Positions 34,978 through 45,095 of a DNA stretch of 50,192 nucleotides are shown here, piece after piece. The stretch is from an uncultured Blastocatellia bacterium. Its GTDB lineage: Bacteria > Acidobacteriota > Blastocatellia > Chloracidobacteriales > Chloracidobacteriaceae. Position numbers and translations under genes: made by a program. The notes below the pieces were generated by a model. That model saw only the letters and a program-made list of their open reading frames with translations, was not told the origin of the DNA and made no database searches. The DNA lies in assembly GCA_937934745.1 (NCBI GenBank), contig CALGZC010000032.1, positions 35,001-85,192 of the forward strand, given 5' to 3'. The number at the start of each line of letters is the position of its first letter. Within the stretch, counting starts at the first letter, position 1.

Positions 34978-35325
34978 GGCACGACCATGAGGCCATGCCC
35001 GGCCCACAGTCGTCTATGCTGCCGTTTATGCTCCGGTATCCCGGCCGCCGCCAACACCACAGAAGCCACCCTGTAGACGCCTCCAGCACACACCCCATAG
35101 CGGCGCAGAGGCGCATTGCCGGCACCAACAGGTGATGCCAGCAGTAAGTAATACCTGCAACCACCTCCGCCCACGCCGAAGCGGCTTGTGCCGGTGCGCC
35201 ACGATTCCACCCGCCTGGCCGGGACCGTGGCGTTGCTCAAACACAACCCACCACGCCTGCCAAGGCTGTATTTTACTGATTTCAACCTAAAAAAGCCGAG
35301 GTTCAGGACTGAGTTGTCAGAAAGC
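34978..35325. other. 348-bp gap between divergent CDF and kinase genes
   Basis: It should carry both promoters. The final 70 bp before the kinase are AT-richer (TATTTTACTGATTTCAACC) than the rest. I searched by eye for metal-responsive riboswitch cores (yybP-ykoY, M-box) on both strands and saw none. No coding frame looks real. Confidence 0.5.
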
Positions 35326-37545
35326 ATGGGTTCGCGCAAAATAATACTTTACCCTGCACAGCCTTGTTTTTTGCGGAGACACCATACTTTGACGACGATC
35401 CCTGATCCCTTCATCGGTGTCATCCTCGATGGCAAGTATCGCCTTGATGCCAAAATCGGTGTCGGTGGCTTTGGCTCGGTGTATCGGGCGACACACCTAA
35501 ACCTCAACCGGCCGGTGGCCGTCAAAGTCCTGCACCACAACGTGCACAACACCACACCTGAAAACCTCGAACGCTTCCGGCAGGAAGGTGTCTCTGCTTG
35601 CTCGGTCTCACATCCAAATGCCGTTGCCGTTCTCGACTTCAGCATTACCCAGGATGGACATGCCTACTTGGTCATGGAGCTGCTGGACGGCCGGCCGCTG
35701 AGCGACGAATTGCAGGAACGATATGTGCTGCCACTCGAACGCTGTGTGGAAATCATCGTTCCGGTGTGTGACGTCCTGACCGAGGCCCACGCTTCGGGCA
35801 TCGTGCACCGCGACATCAAGCCGGACAACATCTTTTTGCACCGTACCCGACGCGGCGAGATTGTCAAGGTACTCGATTTCGGCATTGCCAAGCTGGCGTG
35901 TCCACCCAAGGAACCGGGCCGGCACAACTTGACGGCGACCGGCATCCTGATGGGAACACCGGAATACATGTCCCCGGAGCGCATGCGCAACAAACCCTAT
36001 GACGGCAAGGCAGATGTCTATAGTCTGGGCATCATGATGTACCAAATGCTCACCGGCCGGCTGCCCTTCGAGTCGCCCGAAAACGACTTCGTCGCCGTGA
36101 TGTGGATGCAGGTCAACGATCCGCCGCCTCCGCTGCGGTCCTACAACGCCACCATTCCGGTGGACGTTGAACGGGTCGTCCTGCATGCACTGGAGAAGGA
36201 TCCAGTCAATCGTCCGACGGCGGAAGAACTGTCGCGTGAACTGCTGGCAGCCGTCGGCGACACGACGTTTGGTTATTCGTCCGGCAAATTCACCCTCGGG
36301 GGGACACCGGCCTCTTCGGCGGCAGCGAGCCTCCCCGCTCTCACGGCTGAAGGGCCGGACATGCCACTGTTATTTGACCTGAGCGCTACCCTTGAGATTG
36401 TAACCCCTCCACTGCCCGAAGCAGCCAAGGGGATCTACAACGGCCCGCCCAAGCTCCAGGAAAAGCTCCAGGAAGTGCTGATCCCGCCGCAGTCTGAGCC
36501 GGAAAAGCAACATGAGCCGGAAAAAATCGGCGAAATTGCCGTCTTCACAGGACACACCTATCCAAACAGCATTGCCTTCTCACGTGATGGGCAGTTTTTT
36601 CATTCCGCACGTCGCGATCAAACCATTGGCATGTTTTCTACCGCAGACGGGCGGGAGATTACCCGGTTTGCCGCCGGACGAATGTTTCCCGTGCGCTGCG
36701 TCGCGCTCAGCCCTGACAACCGCATGGCGCTGTTCAGCGGCGCTGATGACAGTCTCCGCCTGCGCGATGCCCAGAGCGGAAGTGAGCTTCGCCGCCTGTT
36801 TGGGCACACGCTGGTCACCACCGTTGCTTTTTCCCCGGATGGTGCCTGGATTGTCACAGGGGGGCAGGACAAAACCGTTCGGTTGTGGGAAACCGCATCC
36901 GGCCGTGAACTACAACGCTTTACCCGACACGCAGATGAGATTGCCTGCGCTGCGTTCGCTCCCAACGGACAGTCGGTGATCGTGATGACCGTCGGCGGTG
37001 ACATCCACCTGTGGGAAACGTTGACCGGCCGCCATCTCCTGTACCTGCCGCCGGACGAAACAACCTATGACTCGTTAAGTGTTTCCATCTCAGATGACCG
37101 CCAGCGTCTGGTGGGCAGCGAACTCAAGCAGGTCAAGACAGCCGAGAGCGAAGGCCGCCGGCGCATCAAACGACTGGACGTCGGACAAATTCCATACGGC
37201 TCATCACAGGTGGTCTTTACACCGGACGGGCGGTACGTGGCGTCTGTGAACCTCGATTCCACCATTCGACTCTGGGAGGTTGCCAACGGCAAGGCGTTAC
37301 AGGTGTTCATCGGGCACGGTAACTACATCAACAGCTTGGCGATCTCAGCGGACGGCAAACGCCTGTTGTCGGGTAGCGACGACCGGACGGTGCGGCTCTG
37401 GGACATCGCGAGCGGCCACGAAATCATCTGCTTGACCGGCCATACAGATCGCGTTCACCACGTGGCGTTACATCCTGACGGCGTCCATGCTTTCTCGTGC
37501 GGACCCGATGGAACGGTGCGGCGCTGGGGTCTCCCGCCGGCCTGA
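35326..37545 (+). CDS. Ser/Thr protein kinase fused to a WD40 beta-propeller
   Basis: A 739-residue PknB-type kinase. The kinase domain (about 38-310) has the glycine loop GVGGFGSV (45-52), catalytic lysine K67 in VAVKVL, HRDIKPDN (161-168) with catalytic D163, DFG (184-186) and MGTPEYMSPE, so it should be active. A Pro/Glu-rich linker (about 310-405) leads to about seven WD40 repeats to the end, with clear examples such as SPDGAWIVTGGQDKTVRLWE. No transmembrane segment is visible, unlike many PknB kinases. The propeller probably recruits substrates or partners. The start may instead be TTG 35389 (residue 22), which has GGAGA upstream and begins at the conserved IPDPFIG segment. Convergent with mgtE. 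Confidence 0.92.
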   Translation: MGSRKIILYPAQPCFLRRHHTLTTIPDPFIGVILDGKYRLDAKIGVGGFGSVYRATHLNLNRPVAVKVLHHNVHNTTPENLERFRQEGVSACSVSHPNAVAVLDFSITQDGHAYLVMELLDGRPLSDELQERYVLPLERCVEIIVPVCDVLTEAHASGIVHRDIKPDNIFLHRTRRGEIVKVLDFGIAKLACPPKEPGRHNLTATGILMGTPEYMSPERMRNKPYDGKADVYSLGIMMYQMLTGRLPFESPENDFVAVMWMQVNDPPPPLRSYNATIPVDVERVVLHALEKDPVNRPTAEELSRELLAAVGDTTFGYSSGKFTLGGTPASSAAASLPALTAEGPDMPLLFDLSATLEIVTPPLPEAAKGIYNGPPKLQEKLQEVLIPPQSEPEKQHEPEKIGEIAVFTGHTYPNSIAFSRDGQFFHSARRDQTIGMFSTADGREITRFAAGRMFPVRCVALSPDNRMALFSGADDSLRLRDAQSGSELRRLFGHTLVTTVAFSPDGAWIVTGGQDKTVRLWETASGRELQRFTRHADEIACAAFAPNGQSVIVMTVGGDIHLWETLTGRHLLYLPPDETTYDSLSVSISDDRQRLVGSELKQVKTAESEGRRRIKRLDVGQIPYGSSQVVFTPDGRYVASVNLDSTIRLWEVANGKALQVFIGHGNYINSLAISADGKRLLSGSDDRTVRLWDIASGHEIICLTGHTDRVHHVALHPDGVHAFSCGPDGTVRRWGLPPA

Positions 37546-39143: not shown

Positions 39144-39869
39144 CTATTCGATTCGCAGGCTGCCGCGCGCAATGACGCGGCCTTGAGCATCGAGCCGCGC
39201 CGGCGACAGCACCACGACATACCCGCTCCCCGGACGGACGCAATCGAACACAAAGCGGTAGTTCTGCTCAAAGTCGCCGGCGTAGATGACCTCTTGCGCC
39301 GGAAAGACCAAGCGTTCGCCCTGGGCTTCCAGTTCCAGGAACAAGCCTTTCGGATTGACGGAAAAATGCTGCGTCAGGGCGTCAATGTGGCCCGTTCGCA
39401 GGCGTCCTCCGTAGCGCGCCACAATATCTGAAACCCGCTGATTTTCAAAGGCAGCGGTCGGCGATGGCGGCTGGGCAACCGCATCCGGCGGCGCCGGAAG
39501 CGATGTTGGCGCCGATGCCGTTGGGACCGACGCCGCCGCCAGCGCCTGAAACGGCTGGGGGGGTGTCTCCGGTGGCGTCAGCAACATCGAGAGCTTGCTT
39601 TTTAGGTAGTCCACCTCCCGCCGGAGTTCCTCAAGGCCTGGTTCTGGCCGGGGGGAGCCGTGGTTGGCCAGACGGCTGTTGACCGTTTGACACCACCCTT
39701 CGATTTGTTCGATCCGCGCCACCAATCTGTGCCACTGATCAATGTCTTTCGCCCGTTCGCGCTCCTGAACCTGGAGCGGACGAATCACAATCAGATACAG
39801 CGCCACGATGCCGAGTAGGCTCAAGAGCGCGACTGCCAGGGCCGTGAGCGCGAGTGCCTCCATGTCCAT
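39144..39869 (-). CDS. Single-pass membrane coiled-coil protein of the tubulin/actin-like operon
   Basis: I do not recognise this family. The 241-residue protein has one N-terminal transmembrane helix (about 5-28), a charged coiled-coil stretch (35-98), an Ala/Pro-rich linker (98-140), and a C-terminal domain (141-241) beginning NQRVSDIVARYGG with predicted strands (GLFLELEAQGERLVF, YRFVFDCVR, GYVVVLSPAR). The topology suggests a membrane anchor or scaffold that presents a C-terminal binding domain. I chose ATG 39869 because GAGGAGG lies just upstream; an in-frame ATG at 39908 would overlap the end of the preceding gene, and 39863 is also possible. It is the third gene of the operon, 31 bp after the actin-like gene. 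Confidence 0.8.
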   Translation of the reverse strand: MDMEALALTALAVALLSLLGIVALYLIVIRPLQVQERERAKDIDQWHRLVARIEQIEGWCQTVNSRLANHGSPRPEPGLEELRREVDYLKSKLSMLLTPPETPPQPFQALAAASVPTASAPTSLPAPPDAVAQPPSPTAAFENQRVSDIVARYGGRLRTGHIDALTQHFSVNPKGLFLELEAQGERLVFPAQEVIYAGDFEQNYRFVFDCVRPGSGYVVVLSPARLDAQGRVIARGSLRIE

Positions 39870-39900
39870 TCCCTCCTCGGCGCAACCGGCGTCGCCCACC

Positions 39901-42900
39901 TCACTCATACGTCATCACCTGCTGCCGGCGCGACTCCGGCTCGTCAGCGAGCGGCGGCTGGTCATCATAAAACCCGGCCTTGCGCGCCATATCTTCAATC
40001 ATCGGGTAAGGCTGATCCGGCAGGCTCGTCACTAGCTTGAGGTCCGGGTCGGCATAGAGCACGCCCGTCAGAAAGAGCGCCAGGGGGGTCAAGGCCGGAT
40101 AATGGCGGCCGCCGGCCAGGTAGCCGTTCACGGTCGCCCATTTTTTCTGCGGCATGAGGTCGGTTGACCCGCGCGAAGTAAACAGGGTCAACAGGTCGTC
40201 CAGTGGTTGAACTGTGCCGGGCGGCTGAATCTTCACCTGCCGAATGTCGGTATCCGGCTCCATCGCAAACAGGCGCTTCAGGTCCGCCTCGCTCCAGCGG
40301 TTGAACCACCACACCGGGCGCGCCGGCAACTCAGCCGCCCCATCGCTGACCACCACTCCCGGCAGGCTCGCGCCGGCAAACGGCGCTACGTGGCGGCTGA
40401 CGGTTTGCGCCGCCGACACCGCCAGCGCCCCGATTGGGACGTTGGTCTTGGCGCGGCTGATGTCGCCTTCGTTGAGCAATGCGACATCGTGAATGTGCAA
40501 GCCGTCCAAACAGGACTTAGCTTTGGGGGACAACCCGGCAGCGCCGCGCTGCTTGATCCGCGTCAGCAAGGCCTCAGCTTCCGCATGTAACGCTGCGCCA
40601 GAACGCTCGAAGTCCGCAAACAGGAGGAGTCCCCACGCGTTGCCACCCAGCACAAGCTGAATGCCGTACGGTAACTCCGCCGGCGTGAGGTTGCGCTCGA
40701 TAGCCGCGGCGGCTGCCTGTACTAATCCGTAGGCTAACAAATGCCGGAAAAAGAGCTGGGCGCAAAACCGCTGGTAGGCGTCGCGGTAACTCTCGTTTTC
40801 AGGCAGCGAATGGTCACGCTGCCGCTTGAGGATGGCCCGCTCGCGCTCCATGAATGTCTCCGTTTGCAACTCGTTGACGCGCAGCAGATAAAAGGTCGGC
40901 AAACTGAGGCCGTACTCACGGATGCCCGGCATATCGGCCACATCCATCTCGGCGAATGGGGCGTCGTCCGGGGCGAGGAGCAGACCCAGGTGGCGGCGAA
41001 ACACGCTCGCGCGGCGCAGCTTCAGGCGCGGCGAGAGGTTTTGTTCTGCCGTACGGAAAAACTGCCGTCCCGCCAGACGCAGGCTATCCAACAGCAAAAT
41101 TTCCGTTCCCCGCCGCACGGCGATGTCGGCCGTACCGCCCCCGACGTCAATGAACACATCCAGCCGCTCCCTGCTCGGTGGCAGATTGGCGCCGGCTGCG
41201 GCTGCCGCACTTTCGTCCACACCCCCTTGGTAGTGGGCAGCAGCGTTGAAGTTGCGCGCTCCGTGGCATAGCTGCTGAATCACGACGATGCTGTGTTGGT
41301 TCTGCCGGTGGAACACATCCCGGTCGGCCCTGCTCATCGCCAGGGGGAAGGTAAAGGTGTAGTTTGTTACACGCGCCCGCCGGTTGAAAAACAGCTCGGC
41401 ATGTGCGTATAGCAGGAGTAAACGCAGAAACAGCGCGCGGTAGGCGGACGTTTGCGGTTGATCCCACTTGAGACTGTCGTGCAGGTCCCAGGCGTTTGTT
41501 CCACTGCCGGCTGCCAGCATTCGGTTGAGGCCGTCGGCATAGAGGTTCGGGATGGCTGCCGCAAAGAAGTGCTCCACGGCGAGCGTTTCCGGCGTGACGC
41601 TTTGCAGGCTGGAGGCGCGGCGCGTCAGCAAGGTCGTTGAGAAATACCCCTTTGACCCGCCCCAGTTGAAGGGCGCGAAGCCGAGCCGATTCGCCCCGTC
41701 CCCGTTCCACAGGCGGAGCGGCGCCAGTGAGAACCGGAGCGTATCGGTGACGCCCGCTGCGCTAAAAGCCACCGAGGTGTTGCTCGTTCCGAAATCCACG
41801 GCGAGATGGGCTTCGGCGAGCGGTTGTGCGCCGGCATCGGGCAGCTTTGTCAGCCACACGACCCCGCGCTCGACATCGCGCCCCTGTACCGGCCACCCCC
41901 AACTTAGGGCGCGCGGCCGATTCCCCGCCGGACTGTCGGCCTCGGCGGTCTCCGGCGGCGTCAGCAGCGTGACATACTCATCCTGCGCCGTCCCCAGCTC
42001 GTAGACGTTCCCCAGGCGTCCCGCTTCATCCACCAGCCGCCAGCGTCCGGTGCGTTCGCGCACGCCCAGGCCATGGGCCGCATAAAAATGCCACCGGGGA
42101 TCGACTTTGGGCGGCCACAGCGACAACGAAGCCACCGTCAGATCGCGCGCCTCAAAGTAGCGCGCCCTCCACGGAACCTCCCGCCCGCAGAGCCGGAATG
42201 TCCACTCCACGCTTTGCCCGTCAAACGCCCACCGGGCGCGCAGGTCCACCCCATCTTCTGCCAGCAGTTCGGGGAAATACGCCAACAACCGGGTCGTCAC
42301 CGGAGCCAGACAAATGGCCACTTTGGAGGGGTCGAACAAGCTTTGCAACCGATGGACCGGATGAATGAGCGCCAGCCGCCGGTCATCGCCTGGATAATCC
42401 ACGCGCCCGGCGAAGTCGCTCAGAAAAAGGCTTGCCAAATCCACAATTTCATCCTGCGGCCCGAGTGAAAGCGTTTCCAACCGCCCACGAACCTCCACAC
42501 CGATGGTCTGCGGCGCTAACCGGCGGTAGCTCATCGGCGACGGCCACCCCGGCCCAAGCGCCGTCGTCATCCAGCTCGCCGGGGTCGGAAACTGATCCAC
42601 GAGAAAGTAGGTCCGTCCGCCGGCGGCATTCGGTTTCTGCAGGGGATACATCGCCAGCAGTTCTGCCGGCTGTGCTGGAGCGCGGACCGGCAGCCAGCCG
42701 GCCGGACTCGGCGACAAGCGGGGTATCTGCTCTAGGCCATAGGGTGGTGGGCCGAACACGGCATCGCACAACGCATCAAGAATTTTCCCGAAACTCAGCG
42801 GCAAGGCATCGCGCGCCACACATCGCAGATGGCGGTGGCAACGGTCGCGCTCGAGGCTGTCCGACAGCAAGACAGCTTGGGTCTGCTCCCAGGATAACTG

Positions 42901-43368
42901 CTCACCGCTCAGGTACGGACGCAGGTAGTTGTCACGCTGCCAACGGGAACGCGCCCGCGCCGGAAAGAAGATCACGTCGGGATAGATGCCGCCCACCGTC
43001 GTCGATCCAACGCTTAGAAATTGCGCTTCGCGGAACTGCCCCGGCTGCGGATGGGTCGTTTCCAAAGCCGGTTGCAACGCGAGCGGATACTCCCGCGCCA
43101 GCGTGGCGAGCGTCAGCGGCTCGGTCAAGTACGCCACGCCCATCGCATGCAGCACAAACAGCGTCAACCACTCCCGGCGGGCGGTTTCATCGCCTTGCTC
43201 CACAGCCTGCCGAAACCGATAAGCTGTCGCCCACACGGTCGGGAGCGTCTCAAAGAAGCGTGGATCAGGCGTCGGCGGCGTCACGCGATGCGGATCGATC
43301 GGAAAAAAGGTGCGCGGGCGAAACCCGCCGACTTCCCCTAACAAGCCCTGATTGATGAGTAATCCCAT
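39901..43368 (-). CDS. Actin/Hsp70-fold ATPase with a large N-terminal region (possibly SrfB-like)
   Basis: A 1155-residue protein. The ATPase core starts about residue 520: phosphate-1 loop VDFGTSNTS (524-532), phosphate-2 loop IDVGGGTAD (740-748) and an adenosine-type motif LVLGGNAWG near 905, in the order and spacing of the actin/Hsp70 superfamily but with large insertions. Residues 1-515 form a soluble region I cannot assign; it contains FGKILDALCDAVFGPP and SLWPPKVDPRWHFY. No membrane helix is visible. Large ATPases of this type include SrfB-family proteins, which is my best guess. ATG 43368 has GGGGA seven bases upstream; a TTG at 43386 is an alternative. It follows the tubulin-like gene by 23 bp and must act with it. 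Confidence 0.85.
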   Translation of the reverse strand: MGLLINQGLLGEVGGFRPRTFFPIDPHRVTPPTPDPRFFETLPTVWATAYRFRQAVEQGDETARREWLTLFVLHAMGVAYLTEPLTLATLAREYPLALQPALETTHPQPGQFREAQFLSVGSTTVGGIYPDVIFFPARARSRWQRDNYLRPYLSGEQLSWEQTQAVLLSDSLERDRCHRHLRCVARDALPLSFGKILDALCDAVFGPPPYGLEQIPRLSPSPAGWLPVRAPAQPAELLAMYPLQKPNAAGGRTYFLVDQFPTPASWMTTALGPGWPSPMSYRRLAPQTIGVEVRGRLETLSLGPQDEIVDLASLFLSDFAGRVDYPGDDRRLALIHPVHRLQSLFDPSKVAICLAPVTTRLLAYFPELLAEDGVDLRARWAFDGQSVEWTFRLCGREVPWRARYFEARDLTVASLSLWPPKVDPRWHFYAAHGLGVRERTGRWRLVDEAGRLGNVYELGTAQDEYVTLLTPPETAEADSPAGNRPRALSWGWPVQGRDVERGVVWLTKLPDAGAQPLAEAHLAVDFGTSNTSVAFSAAGVTDTLRFSLAPLRLWNGDGANRLGFAPFNWGGSKGYFSTTLLTRRASSLQSVTPETLAVEHFFAAAIPNLYADGLNRMLAAGSGTNAWDLHDSLKWDQPQTSAYRALFLRLLLLYAHAELFFNRRARVTNYTFTFPLAMSRADRDVFHRQNQHSIVVIQQLCHGARNFNAAAHYQGGVDESAAAAAGANLPPSRERLDVFIDVGGGTADIAVRRGTEILLLDSLRLAGRQFFRTAEQNLSPRLKLRRASVFRRHLGLLLAPDDAPFAEMDVADMPGIREYGLSLPTFYLLRVNELQTETFMERERAILKRQRDHSLPENESYRDAYQRFCAQLFFRHLLAYGLVQAAAAAIERNLTPAELPYGIQLVLGGNAWGLLLFADFERSGAALHAEAEALLTRIKQRGAAGLSPKAKSCLDGLHIHDVALLNEGDISRAKTNVPIGALAVSAAQTVSRHVAPFAGASLPGVVVSDGAAELPARPVWWFNRWSEADLKRLFAMEPDTDIRQVKIQPPGTVQPLDDLLTLFTSRGSTDLMPQKKWATVNGYLAGGRHYPALTPLALFLTGVLYADPDLKLVTSLPDQPYPMIEDMARKAGFYDDQPPLADEPESRRQQVMTYE

Positions 43369-43391
43369 GGCAATTCCCCAACCCAAAGCCG

Positions 43392-45095
43392 CTACACGCC
43401 GGCCCCTGCTTTGGCAAAGATTTGCGCCCAGACCAGTCGGGCGTAGTCACCGCGCTTGAACTCCGGCGGCGGCATCCAGCTGTAAAAGTCAAAGGAGGTC
43501 AGTTCGACTGCCGTATTCCCAAAGCGGAGCGCATCCTGCGGCGTGTTGTCGGTCGCCAACCCGAGCAGCCGCGTGCGCCGTTTCATGCGTTCAATCACCG
43601 TCTGCTCCACGCCGGGCGCTACGAGCCGGTCAAGACCAGCGCGCACGTCAGGACTCCAACCCAGCGTCCGGTCGGGTGACACCATGTCCACCATGGTGTC
43701 ACGGATGAGGTCCACTGCCGTTTGGTAGGCAAGCCGGTCGCGCTCCTGCCGCGCTGGGTCAAGCTGATAGAGCCGGCGCAGTCCACCGGGGTCGGCGCTC
43801 CAGCCGCGCGCGTCGGATGACCAATCAATCTGGTACTTCAGCAAGTGCACGAGGACGGCCGTCGCCAGAAAGACTTTCTCGGCATCCACGGGCCGGCCGT
43901 TGACCAGGTAAACGGGTAAGTCACAGAGGCGAAGTGTCCCCGCTGCCATGGTCATATCGCCCGACGCCAAACCATACTGCCGGCCGTCGCCGACGCGGTT
44001 GCCGGCAAAGTAGTTGAGCGCCGCGATAGCGGCGACGACTTCCGTCGCGTTGAGCGGATTGCGCTGGGTTTGTCCGCCGTTGCTCCAGCGTTCAAGCGCG
44101 TCCGGCTGCGGCTTGCCGATGAGGTACAGCTCGTCAAAGGTCGGCGCAAGGATGTCACGGTAATAGACCAGGCTGTGGCGCGACCGCAGCGGCAGGTCGG
44201 TCGGATCGGCGTAAAAGCCGGTCAGAATTTGACGCGCCAGCGCGATGCGCTCTTCATCGTTGAGGACGGCGAAGGCCTCGTGCGCGGCATACTGTTGCGC
44301 CATCCGGCGCGCCTCTTCATCCACATAGCGCGCATCCGCCTGTCGGTCTTCAGGCAGCGGATTGAAGGGCGGCGGCGGCGGCAGGAAGTAAGGCATCAGC
44401 AGGCAGCCGCCAATCGTCCAGCTCAGGTTGCCCCGCTGGCGCTCGCGGGCGAGAAACTGTCCGATGACGGGCAGGGCGCAGGCGCCTGTGCCGCCGTACA
44501 CGCTGCCGCAGATGAAAAACCGGATTCGGCTTTGGCGGAGCGTATTGAAGTCAATCTGGCTGCCGGCCGGCGAGTTCCGGTCGGTCAACGAGGCCGCAAA
44601 GGCGGCGATGACCGGCGAGCCGATAAAGGGCTTTTGGTAAAACCCCCGGTTGATCTTCACGTCCAGGTCTTTATCTTCATAGAAAGCGTGCAGCAGAGGC
44701 GTTCCGTCGCGCTTGCCCGGCGCCTGGGCCAGCAGCTCGCGCAGGGTTGAAATCGGCTTGTCGAAGCCCGGCAGCGCGAGCGGGTCAAAGTCCCGTATCT
44801 GGGTATTGATCGCCATCGCCCACGGGCTGTCCGCCAGGGCCGACACCCTCGGCTCGCCATCGCCGTCCTGCATTAAGTGCTGGATGTGGCGGTAACGGCG
44901 CAGTGTCTCGTTGAGGACGGTCAGCGCCCCGGAGCTGCGGTCGGGATCGATGCGCCAGATCTCAAGTTCATCGCCGGCGCTGGTCGGTTGTCCCCGCTCG
45001 TCAAGACCTGTTGGAAAGCCGACGGCCAGCAGCCTCACAAGGGCGTCGGCCACCCGCGTACCGTTGCCGCCGGTGACGATCATGATGTTTTTCAT
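43392..45095 (-). CDS. Tubulin/FtsZ-fold GTPase-like protein (Tubulin_2 type)
   Basis: A 567-residue protein. The N-terminal beta-strand and loop IMIVTGGNGTRVADALVRL (4-22) resembles the first nucleotide loop of the tubulin superfamily, and FICGSVYGGTGACALPVIG (194-212) is the tubulin/FtsZ signature loop GG-x-TG-x-G in the form seen in Tubulin_2 proteins. It is far longer than FtsZ and shares no other FtsZ feature I can see, so it is not the division protein. Tubulin_2 (FtsZ-like) proteins have been proposed from comparative genomics to work in membrane remodelling. It is the first gene of the operon with an actin/Hsp70-like ATPase and a membrane coiled-coil protein. No strong ribosome-binding site precedes ATG 45095. 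Confidence 0.85.
   Translation of the reverse strand: MKNIMIVTGGNGTRVADALVRLLAVGFPTGLDERGQPTSAGDELEIWRIDPDRSSGALTVLNETLRRYRHIQHLMQDGDGEPRVSALADSPWAMAINTQIRDFDPLALPGFDKPISTLRELLAQAPGKRDGTPLLHAFYEDKDLDVKINRGFYQKPFIGSPVIAAFAASLTDRNSPAGSQIDFNTLRQSRIRFFICGSVYGGTGACALPVIGQFLARERQRGNLSWTIGGCLLMPYFLPPPPPFNPLPEDRQADARYVDEEARRMAQQYAAHEAFAVLNDEERIALARQILTGFYADPTDLPLRSRHSLVYYRDILAPTFDELYLIGKPQPDALERWSNGGQTQRNPLNATEVVAAIAALNYFAGNRVGDGRQYGLASGDMTMAAGTLRLCDLPVYLVNGRPVDAEKVFLATAVLVHLLKYQIDWSSDARGWSADPGGLRRLYQLDPARQERDRLAYQTAVDLIRDTMVDMVSPDRTLGWSPDVRAGLDRLVAPGVEQTVIERMKRRTRLLGLATDNTPQDALRFGNTAVELTSFDFYSWMPPPEFKRGDYARLVWAQIFAKAGAGV

Follow-up and report, generated by a model that had tools for sequence, protein, structure and literature searches.

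Side-by-side genes for a tubulin-fold protein and an actin/Hsp70-fold ATPase in a partly described bacterial gene cassette

Introduction

A tubulin/FtsZ-fold protein (A), an actin/Hsp70-superfamily ATPase (B) and a protein with one membrane helix (C) are encoded one after another in a 50,192-nucleotide stretch of DNA from an uncultured Blastocatellia bacterium of the phylum Acidobacteriota (hereafter the window). The three genes belong to a cassette of five, V-T-A-B-C, which travels as a unit and is found in at least seven bacterial phyla; V encodes a lipoprotein and T a small membrane protein. Proteins related to tubulin and to actin are mostly treated as distinct cytoskeletons, and here they are found side by side in seven phyla. 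The feature, set out in a preliminary description made from the letters of the window, is real and was read correctly at the level of folds, and it is part of a broader system that is partly described. A tubulin/actin-like pairing is known from Synechocystis (2021), and the FtsZl1 family and its link to von Willebrand factor A (vWA) proteins were reported in 2010. What appears to be new is the obligate pairing across phyla, the five-gene definition, the link to Zor-like stators and the mobility of the cassette, together with a bridge between the FtsZl1 prediction and the Synechocystis phenotype.

Arrangement of the locus and the five-gene cassette

The three minus-strand reading frames were confirmed in the window (Table 1). 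The preferred starts are the ATG at 43368 for B and the ATG at 39869 for C, the latter preceded by a strong Shine-Dalgarno-like GAGGAGGGA; with these starts the intergenic gaps are 23 and 31 bp, as first described. By inspection, a protein kinase fused to WD40-like repeats is encoded at 35188-37545 (+), 1.6 kb past the end of C and in the opposite orientation.

Table 1. Positions of the genes and their main sequence features in the window.
Feature	Position	Strand	Details
Gene A, tubulin/FtsZ-fold protein	43392..45095	-	567 aa; Synechocystis counterpart Sll0445
A, T1-like loop GGNG (aa 9-12)	45060..45071	-	three glycines invariant, 51 homologues
A, T4-like loop SVYGGTGA (aa 198-205)	44481..44504	-	S and GGTGA invariant, 51 homologues
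A, Q-x-N...E block (aa 344-352)	44040..44066	-	Q344, N346, E352 invariant, 51 homologues
Gene B, actin/Hsp70-superfamily ATPase	39901..43368	-	1155 aa; Synechocystis counterpart Sll0446
B, ATPase domain (aa 517-992)	40393..41820	-	VIA alignment range
B, phosphate-1 motif DFGTSNT (aa 525-531)	41776..41796	-	D525, G527 invariant, 42 homologues
B, phosphate-2 motif DVGGGTADI (aa 741-749)	41122..41148	-	D741, G743, G744, D748 invariant, 42 homologues
B, adenosine motif LGGNAWG (aa 907-913)	40630..40650	-	G909 invariant, 42 homologues
Gene C, membrane helix, presumed coiled coil and C-terminal domain	39144..39869	-	241 aa
C, membrane helix (~aa 8-30)	39780..39848	-	hydropathy

The triplet had been taken as the whole unit. 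The adjacency of A, B and C stands, but the unit is incomplete, as V and T also belong to it and are located elsewhere in this genome, next to each other on another contig, C15. The order V-T-A-B-C is kept in genomes from other families of the class, and the sister genomes G005 and G001 carry all five genes in one run, which in G001 has an insert of ~1.2 kb between A and B. In a further sister genome, G006, A is preceded by the TPR gene also seen in the window, which makes misassembly an unlikely cause of the unlinking; the separation of V-T from A-B-C probably reflects a true rearrangement. A and B are 1.2 kb apart in L023, and in L037 and L039 the next B-like frame begins 3.3-4.2 kb after A instead of the usual ~20 bp, as if by insertion.

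V is a lipoprotein whose lipobox cysteine is invariant in 37 of 37 members; its DxSxS and TD motifs, of a pattern typical of vWA domains, are invariant too. The Pfam vWA profile matches one of the 37 and searches of V against the PDB returned no vWA match, so the vWA assignment rests on the motifs. The presence of V elsewhere in the window genome means that a putative counterpart to the vWA partner of FtsZl1 systems is there after all. T has ~3-4 predicted membrane helices.

The description of C as a membrane coiled-coil protein with an unassigned C-terminal domain agrees with our results. Its single strong hydrophobic segment falls within the first 30 residues (best 19-residue window aa 11-29, mean hydropathy 2.9), the charged helical stretch that follows has a coiled-coil look by inspection, and the C-terminal domain is common to relatives. 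Pfam gave no match for C; homologues lie directly 3' of B in the same genus and in four other genera. In several acidobacterial cassettes C is followed by large proteins with zinc-ribbon-like cysteine clusters (L016:9585-11378; L018:1-5140, in tandem; L019:1608-4061).

Folds of A and B

A is a divergent relative of the FtsZl1/Tubulin_2 family, with homologues outside the genus that are 42-44% identical. The tubulin-type GGTG loop reported for the first gene is the GGTGA at residues 201-205, and the conserved block further on lies where helix H7 is presumed to begin, making it a candidate T6/H7 region. Since the glycines and aspartates of the motifs do not vary among the 51 A and 42 B homologues, the motifs of both proteins exceed chance. 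An AlphaFold model of A built from 51 sequences (pLDDT 72) is good up to about residue 370, and all of its top 50 Foldseek matches are tubulins. In structural realignment the best match is FtsZ (VIA Z 16.7, 198 residues, 3.4 A), followed by Odinarchaeal tubulin, PhuZ and CetZ. The Tubulin_2 (PF13809) search proposed at the outset succeeded in part: A of the window scores 16.1 bits, below the cut-off of 27, and the homologues L020 (44.0) and L025 (40.7) score above it.

No invariant acid that could serve as the T7 catalytic residue was found past the presumed H7 in the 51 homologues, D392 being present in 39 of them. Hydrolysis by the FtsZ route is therefore putative, and with no T7 acid of the FtsZ kind recognised as conserved beyond H7, assembly switched by nucleotide would be likelier than a treadmilling tubulin polymer.

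In B, the ATPase domain is preceded by an N-terminal extension of ~515 aa of uncertain fold. Both phosphate loops and the adenosine motif ascribed to the second gene were located (Table 1). Pfam matches MreB over 54 residues (E 7e-7), and comparison of the sequence profile with the PDB retrieved MreB (E 9e-8), an actin-family protein, Hsp70 and FtsA. The AlphaFold model of B is of moderate quality (pLDDT 61); Foldseek matched it to MreB (E 3.7e-8, probability 1.00) and also to Hsp70. When residues 517-992 were aligned with MamK, MreB, Hsp70 and actin, VIA Z ranged from 10 to 12, the values being 12.3 for MamK, 12.1 for the DnaK nucleotide-binding domain and 11.9 for MreB (275-301 residues). 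The tubulin and actin/Hsp70 folds read from the motifs are thus borne out by the models, which match FtsZ in the one case and MamK, MreB and Hsp70 in the other. An SrfB identity for B had also been suggested for checking, and it was rejected: the profile (PF07520) matches neither B of the window at E <=10 nor its relatives at E <=1.

Some cyanobacteria have a second B-like gene a few kb downstream (L030:17439-19631, L032:18350-20548, L045:17455-19680, L043:16925-19909). These second genes are mostly shorter, at 730-741 aa (994 in L043), and the short copy in comparable genomes aligns with no more than the last two thirds of the B profile. A lone 864-aa frame (G083:C24:8505-9293) resembles the ATPase part of B only, and A was not detected in that genome.

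Distribution and co-divergence of A and B

A scan of species genomes with the A profile found at least 580 relatives. Locus counts were made on the best 80 of these, a sample biased towards the relatives closest to a cyanobacterial query; its members belong to Cyanobacteriota, Bacteroidota, Pseudomonadota (including SAR11), Acidobacteriota, Aminicenantes, Poribacteria and Clostridiales. Of the 79 loci in this set with room downstream, 76 have the start of B no more than 700 bp from A and 78 no more than 5 kb from it, the median gap being ~24 bp; where there was room upstream, 68 of 69 loci have V or T near A. An independent check of whole genomes agrees with the pairing in this biased sample. 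Among 247 genomes of the window's phylum, six have A and just these six have B, apart from one weak, partial B-like match. Among 194 cyanobacterial genomes, A is present in 18 and B in all 18, and B is absent from the 13 A-negative genomes that were checked; in two of the 18 the best B match lies on a different contig from A. The adjacency is therefore not a peculiarity of one strain, which had been named as an outcome that would speak against the feature, and the A-B pair is kept across seven phyla.

Pairwise distances of A and of B are correlated (0.955), and none of 2000 permutations reached as high a value. Their co-occurrence and parallel divergence mark A and B as obligate partners, from which we infer a physical complex. 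In the tree, the window clade forms a long, well-supported branch, and acidobacterial rows are scattered over several positions. This scatter suggests horizontal transfer of the cassette between lineages.

The Synechocystis counterpart

The preliminary description held that a dedicated actin-like partner had not been described. This does not hold, as the Synechocystis cluster sll0445-sll0447 is a precedent. Its products are annotated as Tubulin_2 (Sll0445), FtsA-like (Sll0446) and DivIC-like (Sll0447), and the genes were knocked out in 2021 (PMC9880817). As reported there, disruption of each of the three impaired phototaxis and altered photosystem II (PSII) fluorescence, and the proteins associate with the pilus proteins Slr2015 and Slr2018 (PMC9880817). 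The authors suggested a link to the thylakoid or plasma membrane (PMC9880817). Further studies place sll0443-sll0449 in one predicted transcription unit with a SyCRP1-type site (PMC2633013), with sll0443-sll0445 raised 4-6 fold in a lexA mutant (PMC4759255) and Sll0445/Sll0446 deregulated in a comFB mutant (PMC12313861).

The identity of this cluster was tested through the V-T-A-B-C locus of a near relative, L116. The published sll0445 primers fall in gene A of L116 (one mismatch in the forward and four in the reverse primer) and the sll0446 primers in its gene B, with two mismatches. By this comparison, sll0443-sll0449 of Synechocystis PCC 6803 is the same cassette. The order V-T-A-B-C, as in L116, and the pair of folds are common to both systems. 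The window copy differs in that it sits on a very divergent, long branch with V and T unlinked, and its C is not detectably homologous to the L116 protein at the Sll0447 position. In this model cyanobacterium, loss of either the tubulin-like or the actin-like relative is reported to impair motility (PMC9880817). With the two genes side by side and a motility phenotype at hand, cooperation between the two superfamilies becomes directly testable in Synechocystis 6803, Picosynechococcus and Hymenobacter.

Stators, accessory genes and mobility

Beyond the core genes, the accessory set differs strongly among lineages. MotA-like and MotB/OmpA-like genes follow the cassette in Hymenobacter, Bacteroidales, a Clostridiales genome and the acidobacterium L020, and several of these stator genes match ZorA/ZorB profiles. 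Stator genes are absent from many copies, including most cyanobacterial ones, and none was seen next to A-B-C in the window or next to V-T on C15. Some Bacteroidota copies include an Hsp70 gene and one (L076) a TerD gene.

The cassette was also found on cyanobacterial plasmids and on contigs filed as viral, two of which, L109 and L110, have genes that look relaxase- or recombinase-like by inspection; the phage records searched gave no match. A compact V-T-A-B-MotA-MotB run is present on the IMG/VR contigs L111 and L112, T in L112 being recognised by position only. Both contigs look like Bacteroidales elements. PilT was not found in four cassette hosts searched (two Hymenobacter, one Dyadobacter and one incomplete SAR11), and the window genome has several PilT homologues.

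Proposed function and alternatives

The best reading of the encoded proteins is that of a machine driven by nucleoside triphosphates (NTP) and anchored in the membrane, much as first suggested. We hold with about even confidence that the cassette encodes such a machine of the envelope, and that it serves type IV pili in Synechocystis. A and B would be its two cytoplasmic NTPases, A as a GTP-binding protein of tubulin fold and B as a predicted ATPase of actin/Hsp70 fold that carries a large additional domain at its N terminus. T and C, judging by their membrane helices, would keep the complex at the inner membrane, and the lipoprotein V, with its vWA-like metal site, would act in the periplasm or on the outer membrane. 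Cytoplasmic assembly or conformational cycling that depends on nucleotide could then be coupled across the envelope, so that a surface apparatus is built or operated. In Synechocystis the published mutants point to the type IV pilus used for phototaxis as this apparatus. The pilus effect may be indirect, since the mutants also change PSII fluorescence and the available part of the report describes neither complementation nor polarity (PMC9880817). Given that PilT was not found in the Hymenobacter and Dyadobacter hosts, pili cannot be the universal or sole client; the several PilT homologues of the window genome make a pilus role possible there. In Bacteroidota, with no PilT in the genomes checked, a MotA/MotB-OmpA stator often lies in the same operon instead, and in Hymenobacter it may supply the force. 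A bolder extension is less probable: a widespread, mobile, joint tubulin-actin engine in which one inner-membrane complex, with the lipoprotein and with or without a proton-driven MotAB-type stator, moves or assembles surface structures.

An anti-phage or conflict system, in which V/T or the stator would sense disturbance of the envelope and the GTPase/ATPase pair would assemble in response, is unlikely. Such a response would be akin to the use of ZorAB by Zorya, or to the GTPase-centred systems that were proposed to form NTP-dependent assemblies (Kaur et al., 2020). The patchy spread (six of 247 genomes in the phylum) fits it, as do the copies on plasmids and beside relaxase- or recombinase-like genes, and the TerD and Hsp70 genes of some copies. 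The ZorA/ZorB-profile stator genes found after B in several lineages are a likeness to Zorya, but no ZorC, ZorD or ZorE was matched among the core and stator proteins scanned, and the stator is missing from many copies, the window and most cyanobacterial ones included. The systems of Kaur et al. (2020), built around GTPases, have either a tubulin or an HSP70 theme, and the two are said not to overlap (PMC7159879). The GAP1 systems with such partners lend the defence reading some support, and the GAP1-N2 systems likewise have members of the tubulin and HSP70 families, with vWA proteins and membrane proteins as partners. However, they are centred on GAP1 and GTPases and occur in Bacillota and Actinobacteria, whereas here the tubulin and the actin/Hsp70 relative are always together, mostly in other phyla; no TRAFAC-type GTPase or GAP1 was recognised by eye in the core cassette. 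Moreover, PADLOC returned no match for A, B or C, and no nuclease or toxin was recognised in the core. Only a handful of the 146 flanking genes match defence models (1e-15), most being ordinary, which is weak without a matched control. The reported motility phenotype of the Synechocystis mutants arises without phage (PMC9880817), which also counts against the defence reading.

Membrane remodelling or vesicle biogenesis, with A and B as a scaffold that bends or constricts the membrane and with no dedicated pilus link, is still less probable. Makarova and Koonin (2010) defined the family FtsZl1, today's Tubulin_2, noted vWA, GTPase and OmpA-type proteins among its genomic neighbours and suggested a part in membrane remodelling; an actin-like neighbour is not mentioned in their main text (PMC2875224). 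The relation of A to this family, the lipoprotein and transmembrane partners, and the thylakoid/plasma membrane link suggested for Synechocystis are consistent with such a role. The cassette resembles FtsZl1 systems in its tubulin-fold protein and vWA-like partner and, in some copies, an OmpA-type (MotB) partner. It differs from them in its obligate actin/Hsp70-superfamily partner and in A, which has no extended coiled coil after the tubulin domain, the model showing a short helical tail. The literature found describes no membrane phenotype, and the evidence cited in it is gene context only. Through the cassette, the 15-year-old remodelling proposal can be tied to a specified set of genes and to an initial phenotype.

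Segregation of plasmids or chromosomes by a TubZ/ParM-like cytomotive pair, for which the plasmid-borne copies would speak, is highly improbable, as most hosts carry the cassette on the chromosome, it encodes a lipoprotein and transmembrane proteins with no recognised DNA-binding adaptor, and the Gloeothece plasmid already has ParA/ParB. As a separate observation on copy number, one Rhodospirillales contig (L083:1-15095) carries two V-A-B cassettes in tandem.
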